Positions 8,003 to 41,793 of a DNA stretch of 41,793 nt are shown piece by piece. Where the stretch lies: the IMG/VR virus record IMGVR_UViG_3300042483_000260, positions 1 through 41,793 of that record. One strand, given 5' to 3'. This DNA comes from a virus. Each line of letters begins with the position of its first letter. Within the stretch, counting starts at the first letter, position 1. Below the pieces are notes generated by a model. That model was not told the DNA's origin. It worked only from the letters and a program-made list of their open reading frames with translations, and did not search any database. The position numbers and the translations under genes were made by a program.

Positions 8003-8136
8003 TGGTCGTTATAAAGAAGAAAGTAAAGAAAGAAAAAGTTGTTAAGAAGGAAAAGCCACGCCCTATCACCGCAGTGGCTGGTTCTGCTGGTGGGTTTGTT
8101 ACTACTGCTAATCAAGGTATGGCTGGAAACGTCTAA
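8002..8136 (+). CDS. 44-residue Lys-rich protein
   Basis: ATG 8002 is coupled to the preceding stop (TAATG), and its own TAA (8134-8136) is coupled to the next ATG at 8136. The N-terminal half is strongly basic (a run of Lys and Val) and the C-terminal half is Gly/Ala-rich. It is likely a nucleic-acid-associated or virion microprotein, though no family is recognised. The exact fit between two coupled genes is the main evidence. Confidence 0.6.
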   Translation: MVVIKKKVKKEKVVKKEKPRPITAVAGSAGGFVTTANQGMAGNV

Positions 8137-8582
8137 TGGCTGGTGGTGGTAAGAAAAAGAAAGTTAGTTCTTACCTATCCAGATTACCTAATTACGAACG
8201 TACTAACTTTGATAAAAGCCTAGAAACTAATACCCCATATCAAACAAAGATATGGAATCGTGGGGATACTGTAAGTGTTAAAGCAATTGGGCATATAAGT
8301 CCAGAACAGTTTAAACAATCGTACAAACCAAACATATACCATACTGACTGGGACAAGTTGGACTTACACCCAGACTTTCAGACAAGTGTTGATTACCCCA
8401 TAGATGATCTAGTTTCGTCAATGAAAGAACATGGTGTTGTAAAGCCTGTTATTGCTTTTCGCCAAAATGGTATGATTAGTGATGGTCATCACCGAGCATT
8501 TGCAGCAATAAAGGCTGGTGTGGACATTCCAGTTGTGCATTTTACAGAAGATTTCCCTACGATTAAAGGAAAGGATGACTAG
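8136..8582 (+). CDS. ParB/sulfiredoxin-fold protein
   Basis: 148 residues. The first 80 are basic and unassigned. Residues about 88-138 fit the ParB-like fold: IDDLVSSMKEHGVVKPVIAF, then MISDGHHRAFAAIKAGVDIP. The GHHR motif takes the place of the nucleotide-binding/active-site GxxR of ParB, Srx and Noc. There is no HTH, so it is a stand-alone ParB-fold domain, as found in phage nucleases, kinases and decoys of several kinds. A second ParB-fold protein lies at 31207-31635. It is coupled to neighbours by TAATG on the 5' side and TAGTG on the 3' side. Confidence 0.75.
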   Translation: MAGGGKKKKVSSYLSRLPNYERTNFDKSLETNTPYQTKIWNRGDTVSVKAIGHISPEQFKQSYKPNIYHTDWDKLDLHPDFQTSVDYPIDDLVSSMKEHGVVKPVIAFRQNGMISDGHHRAFAAIKAGVDIPVVHFTEDFPTIKGKDD

Positions 8583-31194: not shown

Positions 31195-31200
31195 TATACT
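31195..31200 (+). promoter_or_regulatory. Leaderless-type -10 (TATACT)
   Basis: Ends exactly 6 nt before ATG 31207, and no Shine-Dalgarno sequence lies between. Confidence 0.55.
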
Positions 31201-31206
31201 TGGTTT

Positions 31207-31635
31207 ATGTCCTTATCTCCACTTCAATTTGGTGATCTCATGCCTAAACTGGAGAAAAGGCATGGAGAAGACTTCTCTGATGTAGTAAATACCCTTGCTC
31301 ATGGGACACTTGGTGACCCAGATGCTGAATCCATTTGGGATCCTGAAAGTTTGCCACTTAGCCGTGGTCGTGTCTTAGTCAGTGATTTACATGCTCCTGA
31401 ACCTATTCGTTCAACATTTAATGATTACGACACCAGAACAAAATCAGCAGCAAGTGGATACAAGAGTAATCCAGCATCTGTCCCCCCTGTGTTACTTGTT
31501 AAACGAGCAGGTGGGTATGAAATCGCTGATGGTCACCACCGTATCGCAGCCGCTAGGTCAATCGGTAAAAAGAGTTTGCCAGCGTGGGTAGTCCATAGCC
31601 CATTGTCAGAACCTCACCCAGGTTTTGACGACTAA
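31207..31635 (+). CDS. ParB-fold protein with LSPxQF N-terminal tag
   Basis: 142 residues. The N-terminus MSLSPLQFGDLMPKL carries a tag shared with other genes in this block. The C-terminal half has VPPVLLVKRAGGYEIADGHHRIAAARSIGKKSLPAWVV, here cited in parts: EIADGHHRIAAA is the ParB/Srx-type motif, as in the protein at 8136-8582. No HTH is present. A ParB-fold domain alone can act as a nuclease, kinase or nucleotide-binding effector; which applies is unknown. It faces the minus-strand GNAT genes. Confidence 0.72.
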   Translation: MSLSPLQFGDLMPKLEKRHGEDFSDVVNTLAHGTLGDPDAESIWDPESLPLSRGRVLVSDLHAPEPIRSTFNDYDTRTKSAASGYKSNPASVPPVLLVKRAGGYEIADGHHRIAAARSIGKKSLPAWVVHSPLSEPHPGFDD

Positions 31636-31651
31636 CTAGCCCTATATAGGC

Positions 31652-31987
31652 TTATTTTATGAATTCAAAGGGAATGCGGGTAGGTACATGCCCACCCACT
31701 GCTTTTGCCCAAACATCACCCTCAGTAGTGCGGTATGGATTATGCATTGGTGAGGCTACATCATCAAACTGTGTAGAGATATGATGAGCATGCTTCCACA
31801 TTCCCGTTGCAATACCCTGTCTACGCATGTTTGGGTCCACATGTACATCCTGTACATGGTTAAAAGTGTCTTCAGGCTCACCATGCCACTCCAAATGCCC
31901 AACTGTCTCATTCCCTAGTTTTGCATTGATCCTATGGGGTATTCGCCTGTCGCCTGGATCGTACTGATATTCCACTGATTTAGTCAC
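31652..31987 (-). CDS. GNAT acetyltransferase (paralogue 1)
   Basis: 111 residues from GTG 31987, which overlaps the stop of the gene ahead (GTGA); the frame's upstream TTG (31999) is less likely. VQDVHVDPNMRRQGIATGMWKHA holds the acetyl-CoA-binding V-x-P...R-R-x-G-I-A-T motif of GNAT enzymes. After it comes the tail RTTEGDVWAKAVGG shared with the two neighbouring GNATs. The target is unknown; it might modify a small molecule or a host protein. Confidence 0.75.
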   Translation of the reverse strand: MTKSVEYQYDPGDRRIPHRINAKLGNETVGHLEWHGEPEDTFNHVQDVHVDPNMRRQGIATGMWKHAHHISTQFDDVASPMHNPYRTTEGDVWAKAVGGHVPTRIPFEFIK

Positions 31988-32361
31988 TCTTCTTCCCAAC
32001 TATGGGTAGTATCTAGGTGTTTACGCTTAGGTACTCGTTTTCCCGTACTTATTGCCCAAGCCTCACCGTCATTGGTCCTATCTGGGGAATGCTCTGGTGG
32101 TTGCACTCCACGAGTGGTTCTAGCCATCTCATGTGCATACCCCCACATTCCAGTGGCTACGCCCTGCCTCCGATGGTTCGCTTCTACGAATAGGTCTGAT
32201 ATGTGGTTATTACCCTTGGAGTACCATTCCAAGTTACCTACATAGTCACCATCGTCTGTTTCAGCAACGACTGTGTGCCTAGTCTCTTTACCGATGGGTG
32301 ATTTAGGGTTACCCTTTTCAAATCGGAATTGGTAACCACTGAGGCTTTCATGTGCTGGCAC
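31984..32361 (-). CDS. GNAT acetyltransferase (paralogue 2) with HES...QFR tag
   Basis: 125 residues from GTG 32361. The N-terminal MPAHESLSGYQFRFEKGNPK resembles the start of the 57-residue gene at 33707-33880. The core ISDLFVEANHRRQGVATGMWGYA is the GNAT motif A, and RTNDGEAWAISTGKRVP is the C-terminal extension shared with the other two. A TATACT 6 nt upstream of the start makes the transcript leaderless. The gene is divergent from paralogue 3. Confidence 0.78.
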   Translation of the reverse strand: MPAHESLSGYQFRFEKGNPKSPIGKETRHTVVAETDDGDYVGNLEWYSKGNNHISDLFVEANHRRQGVATGMWGYAHEMARTTRGVQPPEHSPDRTNDGEAWAISTGKRVPKRKHLDTTHSWEEE

Positions 32362-32367
32362 TTGTCT

Positions 32368-32373
32368 AGTATA
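32368..32373 (-). promoter_or_regulatory. Leaderless-type -10 (TATACT), minus strand
   Basis: Ends 6 nt before GTG 32361, back to back with the TATACT serving 32423. The surrounding sequence resembles 33881-33934. Confidence 0.55.
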
Positions 32374-32410
32374 AACGAAAAATTTGCCGTTGAAGGGGGC
32401 GAAATGCGCC

Positions 32411-32416
32411 TATACT
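32411..32416 (+). promoter_or_regulatory. Leaderless-type -10 (TATACT)
   Basis: Ends 6 nt before ATG 32423. It is divergent with the promoter at 32368-32373, with the two -10 elements 37 nt apart. Confidence 0.55.
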
Positions 32417-32422
32417 TAGTAA

Positions 32423-32791
32423 ATGCTTAACCCCAACCAATTTAAGTTCTTATACCAGCAACACGAAGACACTCATGACCTCAATGTGCTTGGAGAAAAT
32501 GGTTATAGCAGGGGTTGGATGCAGTGGTCAGACAATACAGGGGAACTGCAACACATTATGGTAAACCATGATGCTCGTAGACAAGGTATTGCTACTGCTC
32601 TGTGGAATCGTGCTCAACAACTTTCTGGTGAACGTGGGATTACAGCACCTACACACTCATCAAAGCGTACCAAAGAAGGCGATGCTTGGGCTAAATCAGT
32701 GGGTGGAGAACTTCCTAAGCGTAAGCCTTCCCATTATGATCGTGGTCGCATGGGTGTTGATACTCCCTTTGAGAATTACGAAACCCTCTAG
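32423..32791 (+). CDS. GNAT acetyltransferase (paralogue 3) with LNPxQF tag
   Basis: 122 residues. It starts MLNPNQFKFLYQQ, the tag seen in several proteins of this block. The core LQHIMVNHDARRQGIATALWNRAQ is GNAT motif A, and the tail RTKEGDAWAKSVGGELPKRK is shared with paralogues 1 and 2. It lacks N-terminal strands of large GNATs, so it is a minimal version. It converges on the minus-strand gene ending at 32788, with 4 nt overlap. Confidence 0.78.
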   Translation: MLNPNQFKFLYQQHEDTHDLNVLGENGYSRGWMQWSDNTGELQHIMVNHDARRQGIATALWNRAQQLSGERGITAPTHSSKRTKEGDAWAKSVGGELPKRKPSHYDRGRMGVDTPFENYETL

Positions 32792-33222
32792 GCTCTACCC
32801 CGTATGCGTGGGGTGAATTCACGATCACTGTCATTATTTGAATCCAAATTGAAATCGGTTGCCCCAATGATGTGAACTGGTGTTCCAAGGCGTAGGGGTG
32901 TCTCATGCTCAGACTCAACAGCCCCTTCTCCATAATTAGCCCACTCTTCATGTTCTGCTGAATTTCGGTCCATAATATGTCGTTTATGCACTAATCCAGT
33001 AAGGACAGTACCCTTAATATTTTCTGAATAAACTTCTTCGCCCCATCCCTGTCCAATCTGGTTTGTTGCAAACCTATCTGCTTGCCCTGCATGACTATCA
33101 GCAACCCAATGCACACCCAAGTTACTAGTGTCTATTTCATCATGGTGCACTCCCGCAAAGCCACGATGTAGGCGCACATACTTACCTGATTGGTCTTTAT
33201 TAATATGTTCGTGTGCAGCCAT
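32788..33222 (-). CDS. Unknown protein, possibly ADP-ribosyltransferase-like
   Basis: 144 residues from ATG 33222, TAATG-coupled to the gene ahead; the TTG at 33237 is not needed. YVRLHRGFAGVHHDEIDTSNLGVHWVADSHAGQADRFA resembles the first strands of ART-type folds (H/Y-R-G, then a turn with hydrophobic H-W, and an A-x-x-F-A helix). A catalytic Glu cannot be assigned. I treat it as a candidate only. Confidence 0.4.
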   Translation of the reverse strand: MAAHEHINKDQSGKYVRLHRGFAGVHHDEIDTSNLGVHWVADSHAGQADRFATNQIGQGWGEEVYSENIKGTVLTGLVHKRHIMDRNSAEHEEWANYGEGAVESEHETPLRLGTPVHIIGATDFNLDSNNDSDREFTPRIRGRA

Positions 33223-33707
33223 TACTTGTACTCCCAATAATCAGAATCACCTTCAACAAGTTGTACGTCTGAGTTAGGGTCTTTAGTGTCTGGATTGTGC
33301 CCTAAAAACTGTACCCCTAAATGCTTTACCATTCCTGTTTTTACAAGGTCAGAAGGTATTTGATAAGAAGTGCTTCCTTTATCTTCAATGAGGTTTGTGT
33401 ACTTTTTAGCCCTAGTTCCGACACTTCCAGCGTTCACACGTAATGCACTACTACTGGCTCTAACAGAATTTGATGCAGTAGAAGAAACCCAAGATGGGTC
33501 AAATTGAGGGTCTGTGTAATTCACCATACTTACAACACTTGGGTCTATTTCATATTTATGTATTTCTGCTTGTTTGTTGTTTCGTGGGGACGAAATGTCT
33601 CGTATGCGTTGAGTTGCTGATTTTCTTGTACCAGCATGAAATACACCCTTAGACACTTGGTGTGGCTTTTCTCCAGCCCACGTACCATGATAAACAATTT
33701 CGCCCAC
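33222..33707 (-). CDS. Unknown protein with YHGT start, possibly ART-like
   Basis: 161 residues from GTG 33707, coupled to the preceding gene (TAGTG). It starts EIVYHGTWAGEKPHQVSKGVFHAGTRKSATQRI, a pattern seen in ART/PARP-like folds (YHGT, then FHAGT and a following A-x-x-R helix), and continues with IHKYEIDPSVVSMV. The remainder is Ser-rich and basic. No catalytic Glu is firmly placed. It is coupled to another ART-like candidate on the same strand. Confidence 0.45.
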   Translation of the reverse strand: MGEIVYHGTWAGEKPHQVSKGVFHAGTRKSATQRIRDISSPRNNKQAEIHKYEIDPSVVSMVNYTDPQFDPSWVSSTASNSVRASSSALRVNAGSVGTRAKKYTNLIEDKGSTSYQIPSDLVKTGMVKHLGVQFLGHNPDTKDPNSDVQLVEGDSDYWEYK

Positions 33708-33880
33708 TACTTCTTCCTTGCTTTACGCTTCTCTAGAAGGTATTGTGGGTCACGCCTAGTAAAGCCTGCACTTTGATGTAGGTCGTCTATGTTGACAGCC
33801 TCGCCATCTACATAGGTATGCCCTTTAGGGTTGGTATTAGATTTCCAACGGAATTGGGGGCTTTCATGTCTAGGGTCCAC
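33707..33880 (-). CDS. 57-residue basic protein with HES..QFR tag
   Basis: GTG 33880, preceded at 6 nt by TATACT, encodes MDPRHESPQFRWKSNTNPKG, whose HES...QFR(W/F) and NPK resemble the start of paralogue 2. The rest is basic and ends in a Lys/Arg tail. Its TAG overlaps the next start (33707). It is the first gene of a three-gene minus-strand operon. Confidence 0.6.
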   Translation of the reverse strand: MDPRHESPQFRWKSNTNPKGHTYVDGEAVNIDDLHQSAGFTRRDPQYLLEKRKARKK

Positions 33881-33886
33881 TTGTTA

Positions 33887-33892
33887 AGTATA
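33887..33892 (-). promoter_or_regulatory. Leaderless-type -10 (TATACT), minus strand
   Basis: Ends 6 nt before GTG 33880. The adjoining TTGT-AGTATAAA-GAAAAATT pattern is shared with the divergent promoter at 32362-32400. Confidence 0.55.
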
Positions 33893-33922
33893 AATGAAAA
33901 ATTCATGGTGTGAAGGACAATG

Positions 33923-33928
33923 TATAAT
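33923..33928 (+). promoter_or_regulatory. Leaderless-type -10 (TATAAT)
   Basis: Ends 6 nt before ATG 33935. Divergent from the promoter at 33887-33892. Confidence 0.6.
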
Positions 33929-33934
33929 TAACCA

Positions 33935-34354
33935 ATGAAAGCACTTAACCAGTATCAATTCAATGAGTGGCGACCACACATCTATGAAGAGACTGCGACA
34001 TATGGTGCTCCTGGTATGTCTGAAAACACAATGGTAGAGATGTACAAGCGTGGAGAAGGTGACCGTGTGCACGATTCTCTAACAACAGAGAAAACTGGTA
34101 AGTATACTTTTGAATGGCATAACCCTGCTAGGAAAGAAGTTATTGATAGTAGGAATATGTTTCCCCGAACTAACAATTCAGGATTCTCTTCACACAGAGA
34201 AGCACACAATGCCGCTATGGACTTTATGCTAGATAGGGCTGGTACTCCTGATGACCTCAGTACAACAGATGGTTCCGTAATGTATGAAGGTATGTCTTCT
34301 CGTTGGGAAAATTTCCACAGAAACCAAGGTCATACTATTAGATATGAGGATTAA
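33935..34354 (+). CDS. Unknown protein with LNQxQF-type N-terminus
   Basis: 139 residues. It starts MKALNQYQFNEWRP, close to the L-N-P-x-Q-F tag of neighbours. The rest is polar: YTFEWHNPARKEVIDS and a helical AHNAAMDFMLDRAG. No family is recognised. Coupled by TAATG to the next tagged gene. Confidence 0.7.
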   Translation: MKALNQYQFNEWRPHIYEETATYGAPGMSENTMVEMYKRGEGDRVHDSLTTEKTGKYTFEWHNPARKEVIDSRNMFPRTNNSGFSSHREAHNAAMDFMLDRAGTPDDLSTTDGSVMYEGMSSRWENFHRNQGHTIRYED

Positions 34355-34869
34355 TGGCTCTTAACCCTGAACAATTCTACATTGAGCATGAAGAGCATTC
34401 TCCGTTGGAAAATACTTACCCTGGCAGGTCACAAATCAGAAGGCTTGTAGTTCGCCACCCCGATGTAACCCCAACGGAATACCCATTAGCAGAAACTACC
34501 AATACCGTAATGGGTGGTAGGGGAAGTAAAGGAAAAACAAGAAAAGTAAAGACCCCAGGTGCTGGTCCTAATGCTGCTGGAATGGTGGACTATGAGACAA
34601 GTGGTGGCGGAGATGGCGTTTACATCCGCTACATAAAATCTGGTGTGCCTAACGAAGGAATACCTAGACGAGCCGTAGATGCCATAGTTGAGAAGCATAA
34701 CCCTACTGGTATCAACTTTGGCAAAATCATAACCCCAAAAGTGGTGGATGTTATGCGTAGTGCCTCACAACGACACCCAAACATTAGTGTCTATGGTCAT
34801 CGTGACTTTGGTCGTGACAACGGTGGTTTTGGACCAATTAGGTTCAGTGGTGGCAAAGAAGTAGAATAG
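34354..34869 (+). CDS. Unknown protein with LNPxQF tag
   Basis: 171 residues, TAATG-coupled upstream. It starts MALNPEQFYIEHEEHSP; the middle is a Gly/Lys-rich basic loop (GGRGSKGKTRKVKTPGAG), and the end has VDVMRSASQRHPNISVYGHRDFGR, which could be a small alpha/beta domain. No enzyme motif is clear. Confidence 0.7.
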   Translation: MALNPEQFYIEHEEHSPLENTYPGRSQIRRLVVRHPDVTPTEYPLAETTNTVMGGRGSKGKTRKVKTPGAGPNAAGMVDYETSGGGDGVYIRYIKSGVPNEGIPRRAVDAIVEKHNPTGINFGKIITPKVVDVMRSASQRHPNISVYGHRDFGRDNGGFGPIRFSGGKEVE

Positions 34870-35480
34870 TGGCTAAGCACGTTACAGATATTCCTAAACC
34901 ATTTTATTGCTATGTACAGAATGAGTTTTTGTATAATTTTGAGAAAGGGTTTGGGGAATATACAGCCTGCTTAGTTTATGGGCTTTCTGCAATACCTAAC
35001 AGGGCATGGGGTGTATCCCTGCTTCTAGAGAATGGTGCTTTAGTACAACATGTGCCCCTCCATGCTCTAACTTTCCATACTTCTGCCGTACATCAACACC
35101 CTCTAGACCACCTACAGGTATGGAGTTGTTACGGGCAAGATTTCACTACTCATGAATACAGTGCTTTGTCTGAACTAGCCGTGAAGGTATACATGAAAGA
35201 AGGAGTATGGGAAACGGGCAGATATATGTTTACTGCCGCCCCTTACGGGGATATGTACTCATCAACCCCTGATCAGCACAAACACTTTAACTTCGTGCGT
35301 TTAGACTGTGGTCGTGTGGGTGCATGGCCTGGTAACCGCATGCTTGTGTTTGATGAGTCTTTTGTCAAATTGTCAGAAGAGCGCCCAAAATACATTACAA
35401 ACACTAAAATCTGGTATCCAGAAGGATTAGATGTATCTGACCCCTTTGACACAGTTATCTCTTCAGATACTTCCTTGTAA
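34869..35480 (+). CDS. Unknown protein
   Basis: 203 residues from GTG 34869, overlapping the preceding TAG (TAGTG). It is aromatic-rich and probably beta-rich: ACLVYGLSAIPNRAWGVSLLLENG in its first third, then YMFTAAPYGDMYSS and NKFNFVRLDCGRVGAWPGN-like segments. No tag is present. No family is recognised, although the even composition suggests a folded protein. Confidence 0.68.
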   Translation: MAKHVTDIPKPFYCYVQNEFLYNFEKGFGEYTACLVYGLSAIPNRAWGVSLLLENGALVQHVPLHALTFHTSAVHQHPLDHLQVWSCYGQDFTTHEYSALSELAVKVYMKEGVWETGRYMFTAAPYGDMYSSTPDQHKHFNFVRLDCGRVGAWPGNRMLVFDESFVKLSEERPKYITNTKIWYPEGLDVSDPFDTVISSDTSL

Positions 35481-35502
35481 TTCCACCTGGGGAATATTAA
35501 AG

Positions 35503-35508
35503 TAAGAT
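35503..35508 (+). promoter_or_regulatory. Leaderless-type -10 (TAAGAT)
   Basis: Ends 7 nt before ATG 35516, with no Shine-Dalgarno sequence. Confidence 0.45.
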
Positions 35509-35515
35509 ATTAATT

Positions 35516-35689
35516 ATGCCTACATACGCCTACAAGTGTTCAAACGACCACCGCCACGAAGAGTTCCGAAGTATCTACGAAGATGCAAGCAATTTGTCAT
35601 GCCCAGACTGCGGTGAAGATTTGCGCCCAGTTTACTTCTCACCTGCTGTCAATCTTGTAGGTAGAGGCTTTTATTCCAATGGTGGATAA
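35516..35689 (+). CDS. fmdB: FmdB-family zinc ribbon protein
   Basis: 57 residues. MPTYAYKCSNDH at the start, CPDCGEDLRPV in the middle and GRGFYSNGG at the end match the FmdB-type putative regulatory zinc ribbon, full length for that family. One CxxC is complete (CPDC) and the first site has only C8 plus His residues, so metal binding may use His. Such proteins are common in Actinobacteria and phages; their role is not established. Confidence 0.8.
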   Translation: MPTYAYKCSNDHRHEEFRSIYEDASNLSCPDCGEDLRPVYFSPAVNLVGRGFYSNGG

Positions 35690-35694
35690 TAGTT

Positions 35695-35700
35695 TATAAT
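35695..35700 (+). promoter_or_regulatory. Leaderless-type -10 (TATAAT)
   Basis: Ends 6 nt before ATG 35707. Confidence 0.6.
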
Positions 35701-35706
35701 TAGACC

Positions 35707-36993
35707 ATGCCTAACCTTGGAGAACAGTTTAACAACACCTACTTTGCAGGTGATGACAATACAACCCCATATGAAGATGACCACCAATATGGACAAGTTT
35801 CACGAAACACCCGCTCGGAACACCCACAAGGTTTACTCTTTCACCCAGACACTGCAACACAATCTCGTGATGACCCAATGTACTCAATGGATCAACGAGT
35901 AAGAGATATAGGGGAAGTGACAGATGATGTCTCCTCCAATCCCAACAAAATTGCGAATTGGGGCAACACAGTTTTAGCAAATGCAGTAGCGTCTACCAAT
36001 CTTTCAACACCTATGCTAAAAAATAAACCAATAAAAATTGAAGGAATGCGTAGCACTGTTAAGGCTGGTTATTTTTCTCCTGGGGAACAAAAACTGGTGA
36101 TAAATAGACAGGACCAGTATGGGAATAATGTTTCTGCCCACGATATAGCATCTACGTTTACACATGAATGGGGGCACAAAGAAGATCAAGACAACTTAAC
36201 TGCTCAAGGTGCTAGAACACAAATGTATAAAGGTAAGTTATTGGGGTACCGAGAAATAGAAAATGCTAGGTCAAGCACTAAGGGTGCAACTGTTACTTCT
36301 CCTGTAATGGAGGGTGTTGCAGATGGGTACAAAGATAGATTTGGAACAATAAAGGAATATAATAGCGGTGACGAAGTAACCGAAAGATATTTGAACCCTG
36401 TTGAAAATGCTGACCGACATCTTGATTTTACAGAACAAGGTAGCACTGCTCAAGGGTACGGTATAAATTTTAAAGGATGGCGAGATAAACACGAACAAGC
36501 GCTATACGCAGCAACTAGGTTACATGTTTCTATGCATGGCAGGGCTGGTATTGAGTCCCTTCCAGATATGGATGCTCTTGCAGACAAGCACCTGACAGCA
36601 TTAAAGCAAGAACATCTTGCTAAGAAAACTGGTAAACCAGCAGCATCAAACGCAAAATATGCAAATACTGCCAGACACCTTTATTTGGGTCAAATGATGG
36701 AAGACCATCCGCATGTACGTGAAGGTTTAAAACAACTGGGTCTTGGTGATGTTGGTGAATACTCTCGGGCTGTCCACGCACACTACACCGCACCTTTGCC
36801 ACCAAAAGAACAAAGTACCCTTCCTGGTTTTGAGAAACTTGCCCCAACTGCACCACCATTGCCTAAGAGTGCAAAGTTTACCCGTACCGATCCTGTTGCA
36901 GTAAGACAACAGGAAAGAAAAGAACAAGCAAAGAACAGTAAGCCAGGAATTGTAAGAGGAAAAGATGGAAGCCTCTCAATTAGGTTGTTCTAA
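35707..36993 (+). CDS. Gluzincin-like zinc metallopeptidase
   Basis: 428 residues. The N-terminus MPNLGEQFNNTYF loosely resembles the L-x-x-x-Q-F tag of this block. H153-E-W-G-H157 is the HExxH zinc motif, in STFTHEWGHKED. E202-G-V-A-D206 is an ExxxD motif 45 residues on, as in gluzincins, where the Glu is the third zinc ligand. The C-terminal third is Pro/Lys-rich (LPPKEQSTLPGFEK, then basic) and probably disordered. It could cut phage or host proteins; no signal peptide is seen, so it would act in the cytoplasm or, if packaged, be injected. Confidence 0.7.
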   Translation: MPNLGEQFNNTYFAGDDNTTPYEDDHQYGQVSRNTRSEHPQGLLFHPDTATQSRDDPMYSMDQRVRDIGEVTDDVSSNPNKIANWGNTVLANAVASTNLSTPMLKNKPIKIEGMRSTVKAGYFSPGEQKLVINRQDQYGNNVSAHDIASTFTHEWGHKEDQDNLTAQGARTQMYKGKLLGYREIENARSSTKGATVTSPVMEGVADGYKDRFGTIKEYNSGDEVTERYLNPVENADRHLDFTEQGSTAQGYGINFKGWRDKHEQALYAATRLHVSMHGRAGIESLPDMDALADKHLTALKQEHLAKKTGKPAASNAKYANTARHLYLGQMMEDHPHVREGLKQLGLGDVGEYSRAVHAHYTAPLPPKEQSTLPGFEKLAPTAPPLPKSAKFTRTDPVAVRQQERKEQAKNSKPGIVRGKDGSLSIRLF

Positions 36994-37000
36994 CTTGTAC

Positions 37001-37006
37001 TATGCT
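37001..37006 (+). promoter_or_regulatory. Leaderless-type -10 (TATGCT)
   Basis: Ends 7 nt before ATG 37014; the sequence between, TAAGGTT, has little Shine-Dalgarno character. Confidence 0.4.
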
Positions 37007-37013
37007 TAAGGTT

Positions 37014-37142
37014 ATGAAAAAACAATACGGATTAGGCCAGTACGGTAAGGATCGCTTTCGGCAGATCCTTGTGCAAAAAGACGAAAGACTAGAACAAAGG
37101 TTGTCAGTCTTGCTTCTAAACAAAAATGAACCAAAACAATAA
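37014..37142 (+). CDS. 42-residue basic protein
   Basis: ATG 37014. Gln/Lys/Arg-rich, predicted one helix (DRFRQILVQKDERLEQRLSVLLL) with an amphipathic pattern. Overlaps the next frame by 17 nt. No family is recognised. Confidence 0.5.
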   Translation: MKKQYGLGQYGKDRFRQILVQKDERLEQRLSVLLLNKNEPKQ

Positions 37143-37284
37143 TCTAAGTAATCAATTTCCTCAAGAGGACGATGATCCAGAGGGACATTACAAAGATTTC
37201 CATGTTCGTAAGGGCAATCGTAAATCCTCCCATGATCGGCAGGAAAAGAAGCAATTACGGAAGTTCTCAAAATATGACAACTGA
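37126..37284 (+). CDS. 52-residue charged protein
   Basis: ATG 37126 inside the previous gene's end, no clear binding site. An Asn-rich, acidic N-terminus is followed by a basic C-terminus (HVRKGNRKSSHDRQEKKQLRKF), which looks nucleic-acid-binding. Supported by its place in an otherwise empty gap. Confidence 0.45.
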   Translation: MNQNNNLSNQFPQEDDDPEGHYKDFHVRKGNRKSSHDRQEKKQLRKFSKYDN

Positions 37285-38061: not shown

Positions 38062-38772
38062 ATGGCTCGCACCGTAAACTACACAGCCTCTCGTGGCTTA
38101 CCCTGGGAAAGAATTATTCGGGTTAAAAGTAAATCTAGACACCGACTAATGGTACCCACTGCTGTAAAGGCGCAGATCCAAACATCTGTAGATTCTAAAA
38201 AGAACATTACTGCATCAGTGACAGGTGCTGGAGAAGTGCTTCTTTGCCTGACAGCAGCAGAGACACTTGAATTGCCTGTTGGTGACTTAGAGTATGATGT
38301 TTTGGCAGTATACGACAGTGTCTACTACCAAGTTTCTAAAGGTAAAATCACTGTCACTGCATTAGACAATGTAACCGATAGAGATGAGGCTCAATCAATG
38401 GAACTCCGAATGAAGCAATACGAGGATTTCCGTAAGACCTTTACGTGGAAGGATAGTACTGGGACATTGCAAGCAGTTACTAACGCCTATCTCCAAGCAA
38501 AGAATACTGCTGGCACTACAGTATTAGATTTGCGCTGGTACTCAGCCATTCCAGCAGAAAACACAATTGTTGCTCTTGCAGCAGATCGCAGAGGGTATTT
38601 GGCTCCAAAGTCAGGAGTGACCCTTGAAATGCACATTTCAGACAAAAACAGTATTCCAGCAGGTGTTCACACCTTTGATTTATTTGTCCAAGATTCAGCA
38701 GGGGATTGGGAGCGACTAGCCGCAGGCACTATCTCAGTAGATGCTTCAGTCTCTACAAACCCTTATGGCTGA
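38062..38772 (+). CDS. Baseplate/tail-fibre-associated protein (BppU-like)
   Basis: 236 residues. After a basic beta strand (IIRVKSKSRHRLMVPTAV), two Ig-like beta domains follow, with a central helix EAQSMELRMKQYEDF. The second domain, VTLEMHISDKNSIPAGVHTFDLFVQDSAGDW, resembles upper baseplate/neck proteins (BppU_N type). It heads a run of tail-fibre genes, so it likely attaches a fibre to the baseplate. Overlaps the next gene by 8 nt. Confidence 0.6.
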   Translation: MARTVNYTASRGLPWERIIRVKSKSRHRLMVPTAVKAQIQTSVDSKKNITASVTGAGEVLLCLTAAETLELPVGDLEYDVLAVYDSVYYQVSKGKITVTALDNVTDRDEAQSMELRMKQYEDFRKTFTWKDSTGTLQAVTNAYLQAKNTAGTTVLDLRWYSAIPAENTIVALAADRRGYLAPKSGVTLEMHISDKNSIPAGVHTFDLFVQDSAGDWERLAAGTISVDASVSTNPYG

Positions 38773-39220
38773 TTATGTCCTGACTCTAGATGATGATACA
38801 AGTGTCATTGTCACTTCGGCAAAAAGCACGGTAACTTTACAAGATTCTACTCTTGAAGAATCGTTGGTTACTGGTGAAATTTCTACCGTAGATTTGCTTA
38901 TTAGTGACCCAGGTGTTGCTGGTCCTCCTAATACCCTCAGTATCGGCACAGTCACTACAGGTACGACAAGCGCTAGCATCACAGGTACTGCTCCAAACCA
39001 AGTCCTTAATCTTGTATTCCCTACAGCAACCCGACACGTACACACCCAAGGTACTGCTAGCACAACTTGGACAATTAATCATGCCTTGGGTGGTTATCCA
39101 TCAGTTTCAGTTGTAGATAGCGCTAATACTGTAGTGTTTGGGGAAGTAAACTATGTTTCTACCTCCCAAGTTGTAGTAAACTTTACATCAGCGTTCTCTG
39201 GTTTCGCATACCTCACGTAA
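38765..39220 (+). CDS. Tail fibre protein
   Basis: 151 residues from ATG 38765, inside the previous gene's end; the longer frame from 38741 is rejected. GVAGPPNTLSIGTVTTGTTSASITG is a fibre-type Gly/Thr-rich strand, and WTINHALGGYPSVSVVDSA with FSGFAYL is a domain frequent at the ends of phage fibres, here a probable host-binding or trimer-tip domain. The protein is all beta. Confidence 0.72.
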   Translation: MADYVLTLDDDTSVIVTSAKSTVTLQDSTLEESLVTGEISTVDLLISDPGVAGPPNTLSIGTVTTGTTSASITGTAPNQVLNLVFPTATRHVHTQGTASTTWTINHALGGYPSVSVVDSANTVVFGEVNYVSTSQVVVNFTSAFSGFAYLT

Positions 39221-39229
39221 GGAAGTTCA

Positions 39230-40534
39230 ATGGCTCAAAAGTTTCTAACTAATATTGACCTCAACCAGAATCAACTGATTAACGCTACGTTTGAAAAGTT
39301 AGGCACAGACCCATCTTCGGGCAACTTTGAAGGTCGCCTAATTTACAACACTGCAACCGACACTATCAAGGTGTACACGGGTTCGGCATGGAAGTCCCTG
39401 CCACATACTATCGTTTCTGGTGGTGGTGCTGGTATTGCTGAAGCACTCACAGTTTCTGAGTCAAACGGAACAATTACTCTTACACTTGCTGTTGCTGATA
39501 CCGACAGTGCTGGTCTATTGCCAGCCGCTATGTGGCAAATGCTCACAGATGCAACTTCTGATGCAACCAACAGCAAACTCGTAAAGCGTGACTCAAGCGG
39601 TAACGCTAAAGTCGCTACCCCAACAGATTCAGCACATATTGCCACCAAGGGTTATGTTGACTCAGCACGACAAGGGCTTGATGTTAAAGCATCCGTAAGA
39701 GTTGCAACTACCGCCGCAATTAACCTTTCAACAGACCTTGAGGCTGGCGATGTAATTGATGGTGTAACACTTGTTGCAGGTGACCGTGTTCTTGTTAAGA
39801 ACCAAGGAACCGCTTCTGAAAACGGTATTTATGTTGCTGTTGCTTCTGGTGCTGCCTCCCGTTCGTCGGACGCAAACGGAACAGCCGATACAGGTGAACT
39901 AACGAGTGGAACATTTACATTCGTTGAAGCAGGAACTGTCAACTTTGATTCTGGTTTCGTTGTTTCTACAGATGGAGCAATCACTGTTGGTTCAACAAAC
40001 ATCACTTGGACACAGTTTTCTGGTGCTGGCTCGTTTGAAGCAGGCGATGGACTCTCAAAGAGTGGCACACAAGTTAATGTTAATGTCACATCAAACCGCA
40101 CGGCAATTACGTCTGATGCTATTGACATCTCAGCCAACTATGTTGGTCAGTCCTCAATTACAACTCTCGGCACAATCACCACAGGTGTTTGGAACGGTAC
40201 AGACGTTGCTGTTGCAGACGGTGGTACTGGTGCGTCAGATGCAGCAAGTGCTCGTACAAACCTTGGTATCAAGACGACTGCTGGTGCAGTTACAACAAGC
40301 ACTTCAACACTTGCCCGTGTTGCCAAACAGGGATGTGCTGCAAGCATTACAGGAGTTTCAACTACCACTGTTACCCACAACTTTGGTACAACTGATGTAA
40401 ACGTACAGATTTACGAAGTATCAAGTGGTGCAACGGTAATTGGAGATGTGACTCGTTCTAACGCAGACACCCTCTCAATTGTTTTGTATGGCACTATTTC
40501 GGCTAACGATTACACCATCGTTGTAGTAGGTTAA
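39230..40534 (+). CDS. Tail fibre protein, large
   Basis: 434 residues from ATG 39230 with AAGGAAG upstream. The N-terminus FLTNIDLNQNQLINATFE is a typical fibre start; segments such as GRLIYNTATDTIKVYTGSAWKSL, HIATKGYVDSARQGLDVKASVR, and TGVWNGTDVAVADGGTGASDA are standard phage fibre motifs. It ends in a small beta domain (ASITGVSTTTVTHNFGT). It lies after the 151-residue fibre and before a longer one, so the virion probably bears a multi-protein fibre. Confidence 0.88.
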   Translation: MAQKFLTNIDLNQNQLINATFEKLGTDPSSGNFEGRLIYNTATDTIKVYTGSAWKSLPHTIVSGGGAGIAEALTVSESNGTITLTLAVADTDSAGLLPAAMWQMLTDATSDATNSKLVKRDSSGNAKVATPTDSAHIATKGYVDSARQGLDVKASVRVATTAAINLSTDLEAGDVIDGVTLVAGDRVLVKNQGTASENGIYVAVASGAASRSSDANGTADTGELTSGTFTFVEAGTVNFDSGFVVSTDGAITVGSTNITWTQFSGAGSFEAGDGLSKSGTQVNVNVTSNRTAITSDAIDISANYVGQSSITTLGTITTGVWNGTDVAVADGGTGASDAASARTNLGIKTTAGAVTTSTSTLARVAKQGCAASITGVSTTTVTHNFGTTDVNVQIYEVSSGATVIGDVTRSNADTLSIVLYGTISANDYTIVVVG

Positions 40535-40581
40535 TAGCAAATAGACCTTGCGGGGTCACAATATAGAAAGCGATTGAGGTC

Positions 40582-41793
40582 GTGGCACAGAAATTTACAG
40601 TACCTATTACTGTCAAGCAACTTGTTTCTGCTGGTTCTGATGCCGTAACCGTCTATGTAGATGCCGATACATACGCTCGCTTAAAAATTGAAGCAGGTGG
40701 TCGTCTTACTTGGGGTTCAGGTTCAGTAACAGGTGATACAAACCTTTATCGTGACTCTGCCGATGTCTTAAAGACAGATGACACTTTTAAAGCGCCAATC
40801 CTCTACGTAGACAACATTGAAATTGACCCAACTGGTGCTACAACCAACCAAGTTCTTAAATTTGATGGAACTAAATTTGCCCCAGGAACAGCCAGCACTG
40901 TTGGATCTATTGATGACCTTTCCGACGTAACTATCACATCGCCAACAAACGGACAAATTCTTAAATGGAATGGCACGGCATGGGTAAATGACACCGACGC
41001 TGCTGGTTCGTCAGTCAACGCACTTGATGATGTTGCAGACGTAACAATTACAACTGCTACCAGCGGTCAGTTCCTCAAATGGAACGGTACAGCATGGGTT
41101 AACGACGCTATTGATTTGGGCACAGACACCACAGGAAACTATGTTTCGGGTGTTTCATCTGGTACAGGTATCTCTGTTAGTCATACGCCTTCAGAGGGTT
41201 CAACGGCGACTGTTTCCCTTGATGCAACTTTAGACAATCTCTCTAATGTCACTGTCCCTTCTCCTACCACGAATGATGTGCTTCAATGGAATGGAACGGC
41301 ATGGGTAAATGTTGCCGCCTCCACAGTAGGTGCCACCAACCTTGATGGTCTAAGCGATGTCGTTGTTACATCTCCACTTCAATTCCAAGGATTGATGTAT
41401 GACGGAACCAACTGGGTAAACAGCAACATCCCAAATGTATACCTTGTCAGGAATAATACTGGCTCAACCATACTCAAAGGAACCTTAGTTGGTGCTGTTG
41501 GCGCAGAACCTAGCGGAAGAATAGATGTTGCACCATTTGAAGTAACAGGAACAGAAAACTCAGAACTTCGTGCGATGGGTATTGCTGTAAGCAATATCTC
41601 TAGCGGCGTTAACGGCGAAGTGATGAGTTTTGGAACTCTAACTGGTCTTGACACAAGAGGAAGCACCGCCAGTGCACTTGCGGTTGGTGACGAGACTTGG
41701 GCTGCTGGTGACATCCTTTTTGCCCACCCAACCGTTAATGGAAAACTCACAAATGTAAGACCACAACATGACCTTGCTGTTGCATTCATTACC
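40582..41793 (+). CDS. Tail fibre protein with tandem repeats (3' partial)
   Basis: GTG 40582 with GAGG 7 nt upstream; open to the window edge, 404 codons visible. The start AQKFTVPITVKQL leads to a domain with the DNIEIDPTGATTNQVLKFDG motif. Four repeats of about 27 residues follow (near 40909, 41023, 41218 and 41341), each with LxDVxVTSPTxGQxLKWNGTAWVN or a variant, separated by other beta segments. The repeats are known from trimeric phage fibres. The rest of the gene lies beyond the window. Confidence 0.85.
   Translation, partial: MAQKFTVPITVKQLVSAGSDAVTVYVDADTYARLKIEAGGRLTWGSGSVTGDTNLYRDSADVLKTDDTFKAPILYVDNIEIDPTGATTNQVLKFDGTKFAPGTASTVGSIDDLSDVTITSPTNGQILKWNGTAWVNDTDAAGSSVNALDDVADVTITTATSGQFLKWNGTAWVNDAIDLGTDTTGNYVSGVSSGTGISVSHTPSEGSTATVSLDATLDNLSNVTVPSPTTNDVLQWNGTAWVNVAASTVGATNLDGLSDVVVTSPLQFQGLMYDGTNWVNSNIPNVYLVRNNTGSTILKGTLVGAVGAEPSGRIDVAPFEVTGTENSELRAMGIAVSNISSGVNGEVMSFGTLTGLDTRGSTASALAVGDETWAAGDILFAHPTVNGKLTNVRPQHDLAVAFIT

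Follow-up and report, generated by a model that had tools for sequence, protein, structure and literature searches.

The window analyzed here, a viral contig of 41.8 kb (IMG/VR record IMGVR_UViG_3300042483_000260, positions 1 to 41,793), carries a cluster of small accessory genes whose products share a short N-terminal sequence, which we call the QF tag. At least eight genes within 31207-37284 start with the core motif hydrophobic-[NSG]-x(0-2)-Q-F, and the tag, about 7 to 12 residues long, closes in Gln-Phe. The starts listed in a preliminary description of this DNA were all recovered: on the plus strand 31207 (MSLSPLQF), 32423 (MLNPNQF), 33935 (MKALNQYQF), 34354 (MALNPEQF) and 35707 (MPNLGEQF), and on the minus strand, both with GTG, 32361 (VPAHESLSGYQFRF) and 33880 (VDPRHESPQFRW). 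An eighth start at 37126 (MNQNNNLSNQF) had been overlooked, and the open reading frame (ORF) 32788-33222(-) bears a degenerate form, MAAHEHINKDQ. Gene starts were called with a simple caller of our own, and counts move slightly with the choice of caller. The two minus-strand starts (HESLSGYQF and HESPQF) had been taken for a separate motif; they are instead a variant of the same motif, because intermediates occur in related phages (MAAHENLSNLQF, MAAHESLSGKQF, MSAHESLSHQF, MAASDNLSPKQF, MSQRALNPDQF and MTSPENIGQQF). When 85 tags were aligned on the Gln, position -4 was mostly Leu, -3 was Asn or Ser (Leu with a shorter spacer), -2 was Pro, Gly or Ser, and -1 was mainly a polar mix. In a minor form, chiefly in ParB-like members, QL.[LM]F replaces QF.

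The frequency of the motif was compared with that expected by chance, as the preliminary description had proposed, and the motif proved far commoner at N-termini. In the window, the core [LIV][NSG]x(0-2)QF was present in residues 2-22 of 7 of 76 genes, whereas 0.28 was expected when residues were shuffled (0 of 2000 shuffles), and the strict form L[NS]PxQF was seen three times against an expectation of 0.003. The motif was also confined in position: 62 core motifs had their first residue between residues 2 and 16, a rate of 36.5 per 10,000 possible starts, compared with 0-4.5 in every later bin, and 61 proteins had a core motif near the N-terminus, compared with 3.2 by shuffling. The codons of the tag vary freely. 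Among 25 strict tags, five Leu, four Pro, both Gln and both Phe codons were used, and third-position identity was 0.43, showing that conservation acts on the protein and not on the DNA; a copied DNA element was thereby ruled out as the whole explanation, and a DNA-level repeat or translation signal was rejected. Tags on different bodies were more alike within a contig than between contigs (0.289 vs. 0.013; 0 of 500 permutations), as would be expected if the tags of each phage follow one partner. Taken together with the survey of related phages described below, these data strongly support a tag that is real and widespread in a phage family, on unrelated accessory proteins.

The bodies behind the tag are functionally unrelated, as had been noted (Table 1). 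Three mutually paralogous proteins, 32423, 31984-32361(-) and 31652-31999(-), scored over the Pfam cut-off for GNAT domains (Acetyltransf_1, 29 and 27.4 bits vs. 20.7; Acetyltransf_10, 28.8 vs. 23.6), the product of 31207 is weakly ParB-like, that of 35707 has an HExxH motif (THEWGH), and those of 33935 and 34354 matched no family. For 34354, the best Foldseek matches of the predicted structure were mostly GNATs (probability up to 0.93), but their E-values of about 0.03-0.1 are not significant. The two HExxH families have their motif order in common, and the hhalign match between them was weak (probability 17).

Two further families in the cluster are provisionally assigned as ADP-ribosyltransferases (ART). 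Homologues of the degenerately tagged 32788-33222(-) in other phages start MALNPDQF, MSNLSSTQF and MVNEHLVGQQF. In the AlphaFold model of this protein the body is folded and the tag is disordered, with a pLDDT below 50 for residues 1-10. Foldseek ranked ART structures first, with E-values above 1 and thus without significance, and a sequence search of the PDB with the 32788 and 33222 ART-like proteins gave no match. Because the structural matches are weak, the ART label rests on the R-G, H-W and E-x-E residues conserved across eight sequences of the 32788 family, on HGT/HGS-type motifs and on a single, sub-cut-off Pfam match to ART-PolyVal (5.5e-4). The second ART-like protein, 33222-33707(-), is untagged in the window, and its ten-member family includes tagged proteins (L074:8716, L202:10686, L208:256 and L213:12477; L and G numbers are our handles for contigs). 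The two-gene unit 33222-33880(-) that it forms with a small tagged gene recurs in the same order in G003 and G005, where the small protein starts MPAQNNLGGQF. It is possible that the small protein tags its ART-like partner in trans.

Table 1. Tagged genes, associated genes and promoter-like boxes in the window.
Position	Strand	Feature	Basis
8136..8582	+	Distant ParB-like family member, internal HISPEQF, outside the cluster	Family match
31195..31200	+	TATACT -10-like box, 6-nt spacer to ATG of 31207, probable leaderless promoter	Sequence
31207..31635	+	Tagged ParB-like protein, MSLSPLQF	ORF; PHROG ParB-like 3.8e-5 (weak); 35-member family across tag-bearing contigs
31652..31999	-	GNAT paralogue, degenerate start VTKSVEYQYDP; start GTG 31987 or TTG 31999	Pfam Acetyltransf_1 4.3e-6; paralogue of 32423
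31984..32361	-	Tagged GNAT, VPAHESLSGYQF, GTG start	Pfam Acetyltransf_10 1.3e-6; tag
32368..32373	-	TATACT -10-like box, 6-nt spacer to GTG of 32361	Sequence
32411..32416	+	TATACT -10-like box, 6-nt spacer to ATG of 32423	Sequence
32423..32791	+	Tagged GNAT, MLNPNQF	Pfam Acetyltransf_1 1.4e-6
32788..33222	-	ART-like protein (provisional), degenerate tag MAAHEHINKDQ	9-member family with conserved R-G, H-W, E-x-E
33222..33707	-	Untagged ART-like protein (provisional), VYHGTW	10-member family; start overlaps stop of tagged 57-aa gene
33707..33880	-	Small basic tagged 57-aa protein, VDPRHESPQF	Coupled to untagged ART-like gene
33887..33892	-	TATACT -10-like box before GTG of 33880	Sequence
33923..33928	+	TATAAT -10-like box before ATG of 33935	Sequence
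33935..34354	+	Tagged protein MKALNQYQF, no known fold	ORF; no family over cut-off; no homologue among fetched contigs
34354..34869	+	Tagged protein MALNPEQF, GNAT-resembling fold	Homologue L001:8222 starts MPLNPDQF
35695..35700	+	TATAAT -10-like box before ATG of 35707	Sequence
35707..36993	+	Tagged HExxH metallopeptidase-like protein MPNLGEQF	THEWGH; family with MPLGPQF and MPTLGSQF members
37126..37284	+	52-aa tagged protein MNQNNNLSNQF, Lys-rich C-terminus	Homologues in G003/G004 (MNQKNNNLSSQF)

Inside the cluster, 34869-35480 encodes a PHROG 3704 protein annotated as ferredoxin (8e-36), and G011 has a comparable protein in an equivalent setting (81960-82574). Directly after the cluster, 38062-41793 encodes tail-fibre or head-decoration-like repeats (PHROG 2647 head decoration, 4.6e-36). 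PADLOC gave no match.

In six tagged genes of the window, exactly 6 nt separate a TATA[AC]T box from the start codon; two divergent pairs, about 55-60 bp apart, are among them. The same box was found just upstream of 18 of 43 tagged genes in the low-GC group of contigs, compared with 25 of 647 other genes, and Shine-Dalgarno-like sequences were rarer before the tagged ones. The boxed low-GC accessory genes are thus probably leaderless, individually expressed cassettes, and promoters of this kind lend no support to late timing.

A second motif accompanies the tag. Q[GL]x[LM]F (QGLLF, QGKLF, QLKLF) was about 11 times denser near tag clusters than elsewhere (20 in 70,048 amino acids vs. 8 in 322,395). 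It was seen in the tagged clusters of L179, L189, L208, L213 and L338 and in the window protein 35707-36993 (PQGLLF at residue 40), and sometimes it stands at the extreme C-terminus (QGKLF, QKETLF, QLSLF). The bacterial clamp-binding motif is QLxLF, which the second motif resembles. Clamp binding was considered as a general function of the tag and set aside, since only the QLxLF/QGxLF variants fit.

Related loci were collected as a first sample of 14 contigs, through tag DNA patterns in viral contigs and through two loci found with window proteins; the sampled contigs are incomplete. Gene clustering showed that they have terminase, linker, portal, scaffold and capsid genes in common, and a tail sheath gene where the contig is long enough. 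Tag-bearing contigs span 41-66% GC. The closest cultured relatives are the Streptomyces myophages BRock, Alone3, LuckySocke, pSt2308 and GiJojo, with portals 60-61% identical; BRock, Alone3 and LuckySocke also have a similar order of head genes. From these relatives, from actinobacterial prophages and from the WhiB genes present, we infer that the hosts are actinobacteria. The DNA patterns also returned much that had to be discarded: the broad first pattern (ATGGCNYTNAAYCC...), in which YTN matches Phe too, mostly found MAFNPxQFKQKKKR, and most matches to the GC-rich pattern were internal or spurious, being clearly real only in L122, L168, L172 and L074. The MAFNPxQFKQKKKR proteins (most of L006-L099) form an unrelated, repeated family of small proteins, MAFNPxQFKQKKKRAVDPNAPPRPN, in many other phage contigs, and their start often lies at a constant distance of 10 codons past an in-frame stop.

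Because most contigs of the first sample had been found by the tag itself, a second, tag-blind sample was drawn with the linker protein (RGPLRFEEGVATDTDVP; L074:10204-10602 and homologues). The linker is small, highly conserved and encoded between terminase and portal. The viral contigs contained at least 559 stretches that match it, and it is a good marker for the phage family. Seven long contigs picked in this way contained 30 N-terminal tags, compared with 3.8 expected (maximum 11 in 1000 shuffles). The tags were concentrated in G016 (8), G019 (9) and G020 (7), which together hold 24; G021 had at least two, and none in the remaining contigs was convincing. Thus, the tag system is present in roughly half of the family contigs sampled. 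The linker itself (APxPQFPE) was rejected as a tag carrier, since its F is conserved and its Q is not, and it was left out of the counts.

Over all contigs, 99 candidate tags stood on 56 body clusters, a figure that includes some chance matches and singletons. The tagged proteins are mostly small (median 121 amino acids), single-domain where a domain was found, and mainly GNAT, ParB-like, ART-like or HExxH. Tagged genes are often grouped: seven are consecutive in G013, four in G012 with more nearby, about nine lie within 9 kb in G003, and in G016 ParB-like, GNAT and two ART-like genes follow one another, their four tags matching. The ParB-like (31 members), GNAT (21) and ART-like (9) families were confined to tag-bearing large contigs, and none was found in G015, G017, G018 or Streptomyces phage Alone3. 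A tblastn search of cultured phages with the GNAT, ParB, ART and HExxH bodies gave no match. In the actinobacterial prophage relatives (Nonomuraea, Actinomadura) head genes are present, and no clear tag was seen near them in the parts read. A comparison of phyletic profiles yielded no clear partner gene: the differences were limited to the cargo families, a proteasome-like gene and a few more. This proteasome-like (Ntn-hydrolase-looking) gene, L188:3015-3647(-) (G004 39015-39647), lies near the portal and could encode a head protease; among the large genomes, 5 of the 9 with the tag have it and 0 of the 4 without.

In some members of the family the tagged genes lie among the structural genes. 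In L074 the terminase gene is followed by three tagged genes that overlap or adjoin one another, then by the linker, a small gene and the portal. L338 has, after the terminase, two genes whose starts carry GDYQF and which also have a GNAT-like motif, then an HExxH gene (GGPQF) and the linker. In G014 there is a 4-nt overlap between the portal stop and an HExxH gene homologous to a tagged gene of G013; the scaffold gene follows, and two tagged genes are interspersed with the tail genes. The body of one tagged protein, L074:7796, is a DUF3626 region (Pfam, 2.7e-7) that matches the MuF-type capsid maturation protease/ART of Mycobacterium phage Tierra (7e-8) and the minor-head-like gp271 of Bacillus phage SP-15, annotated as similar to TP901-1 ORF33 (1e-9). 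These positions in head and tail operons, together with the MuF-type fusion, argue for a link to the virion.

The tag is best explained as a modular virion-targeting signal that loads unrelated small effectors for delivery with the DNA, an interpretation to which we give a probability of about 0.6. The tag would be an unstructured N-terminal sorting signal with which contractile-tailed actinobacterial phages bring GNAT, ART-like, ParB-like, HExxH and small basic proteins together in the virion as it forms, most likely in its head, so that the effectors enter the host with the DNA. The assembly partner that it binds would be encoded by the phage and would drift in specificity from one phage to the next, and effectors without a tag may be carried by a small tagged protein whose gene lies immediately upstream. 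The preliminary description had likewise suggested that the tag may route enzymes into the virion for injection, or serve a common assembly or localisation partner. It is partly supported: the shared tag on unrelated proteins stands, and the putative packaging draws indirect support from the head-operon positions, the effector repertoire, the one MuF fusion of a body and the phage-specific flavours of the tag.

Several observations weigh against virion targeting. The core structural proteins do not carry the tag, and it is missing from the conserved sequences of scaffold, portal and capsid, so that no partner is indicated; mimicry of the scaffold was considered, since the L245 and L267 scaffolds have QF near the N-terminus, and was rejected because no QF is conserved in the scaffold, portal or capsid of the family. 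An S78 protease profile matched nothing in 12 records, with a control that worked, and an S77 profile also matched nothing in 12 records, a weak result as it had no positive control. The MuF domain PF04233 was found in 0 of the 12 records (the control matched in 4 genomes). In the contigs examined, neither a core structural protein nor a partner or protease could be linked to the tag. Many tagged genes of the low-GC members, those of the window included, are preceded by probable promoters of their own, on both strands, and do not lie within a late operon, an arrangement that is compatible with early expression as well. The ART assignments are weak. No tagged proteins were found in the parts of BRock and Alone3 that were read, suggesting that the tag is dispensable for particle assembly, and none in the parts read of LuckySocke.

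Known systems offer parallels for virion targeting. The internal proteins of T4 need only their first 10 residues to enter the head, after which these are cleaved (PMC9026906), and those of T-even phages, a varied set of anti-restriction proteins, share nothing but the tag (PMC3012670). The T4 capsid-targeting sequence (CTS) of IPI-III resembles the QF tag in that about 10 N-terminal residues are shared by otherwise unrelated proteins, which in T4 are packaged in the head, and in that the effector kit differs between relatives (PMC9026906, PMC3012670). It differs in being cut off by the prohead protease gp21, whereas here no S77/S78 protease was detected and the [LI]xE feature of prohead-protease sites is depleted after the tag (10 of 84 tagged proteins, 0.12, vs. 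406 of 1816 others, 0.22). The likeness drawn here is one of mode. Because this cleavage feature was not supported and packaging here is a prediction from genome context, we do not class the QF tag as a T4 CTS. In phage P1, the first 30 residues of DarB send mCherry to the capsid, so that an N-terminal signal is sufficient there too and the cargo is an injected defence protein (PMC9024508); the signal described there is that of DarB, whereas in the present family tens of small proteins have one short motif.

The cargo has parallels as well. Polyvalent proteins join ART, GNAT, ParB-like and metallopeptidase domains in one chain predicted to be injected with the DNA (Iyer et al. 2017; PMC5512222), and virion packaging has been predicted for ARTs and solo GNATs encoded close to late genes, in the case of ARTs most often in myoviruses (PMC9503650, PMC5512222). 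The same domain repertoire is encoded by these portal-terminase phages (GNAT clearly, ParB-like weakly but family-wide, ART provisionally, HExxH by motif); polyvalent proteins, however, hold two to fifteen domains per polypeptide, whereas here separate small proteins stand under a common tag. In MuF polymorphic toxins and MuF-ART fusions, effector domains are joined to a head protein, as one tagged body is in the Tierra protein, but no MuF domain was detected in tag-bearing contigs, where attachment would be by the tag and not by fusion. The present system would work like a CTS acting on a disassembled polyvalent payload. The open-access literature searched contained no paper describing the QF tag, which is not proof of absence.

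Other explanations were weighed against the same observations. The tag might have no role in the virion and instead dock early-made host-takeover or anti-defence enzymes on a common intracellular partner, such as the replisome, RNA polymerase or a phage compartment. The individual promoters of the low-GC group and the clamp-like second motif near tag clusters speak for such docking; the tagged genes inside the head and tail operons of L074, L338 and G014 and the body found as a MuF-type fusion speak against it, and most tags do not have the L-F part of the clamp motif. We consider docking the strongest competitor, although an unlikely one. Less probable still is that the effectors are loaded into the tube or baseplate of the contractile tail, as in extracellular contractile injection systems such as PVC, whose effectors use N-terminal signal peptides (PMC11495950). 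Members of the family do have a tail sheath, and G014 has its two tagged genes among tail genes, but the tagged genes of L074 and L338 lie between terminase and linker or portal, and DNA must also pass through a phage tail.

We find it very improbable that the shared N-terminus is a by-product, without selected function, of the shuffling of cassettes behind a duplicated promoter-plus-start segment. The fixed 6-nt spacing of the box before many cassettes of the window and the divergent pairs are what such shuffling would leave behind; yet the tag codons vary freely, the protein-level conservation largely contradicts this origin, and the tag persists in GC-rich members that do not have the promoter. 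A chance likeness of short N-termini was refuted: although such motifs are easily spotted by eye and some contigs had been selected by their tags, the excess was found both in the window (7 vs. 0.28) and in the tag-blind sample (30 vs. 3.8).

A broader form of the virion-targeting interpretation can be put forward only tentatively, and we think it rather doubtful as a whole. The QF tag may be an uncleaved, family-wide packaging code that replaces the MuF or polyvalent fusion and allows each virion a swappable payload of several separate effectors; small adaptors with the tag would bring along untagged partners in trans, and Q[GL]x[LM]F would sort the proteins further after entry.

If virion targeting is true, a short sequence read from the genome would pick out the injected effectors among a phage's many small genes without assigned function. 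The scale is considerable, given the at least 559 stretches of the linker family and the tags in about half of the long contigs sampled. The capsid-targeting principle of T4 and P1 would then reach actinobacterial myophages and provide a route to load proteins into such particles, and the tag would point directly to candidates for the host-takeover and counter-defence enzymes of actinobacterial phages from freshwater and soil.

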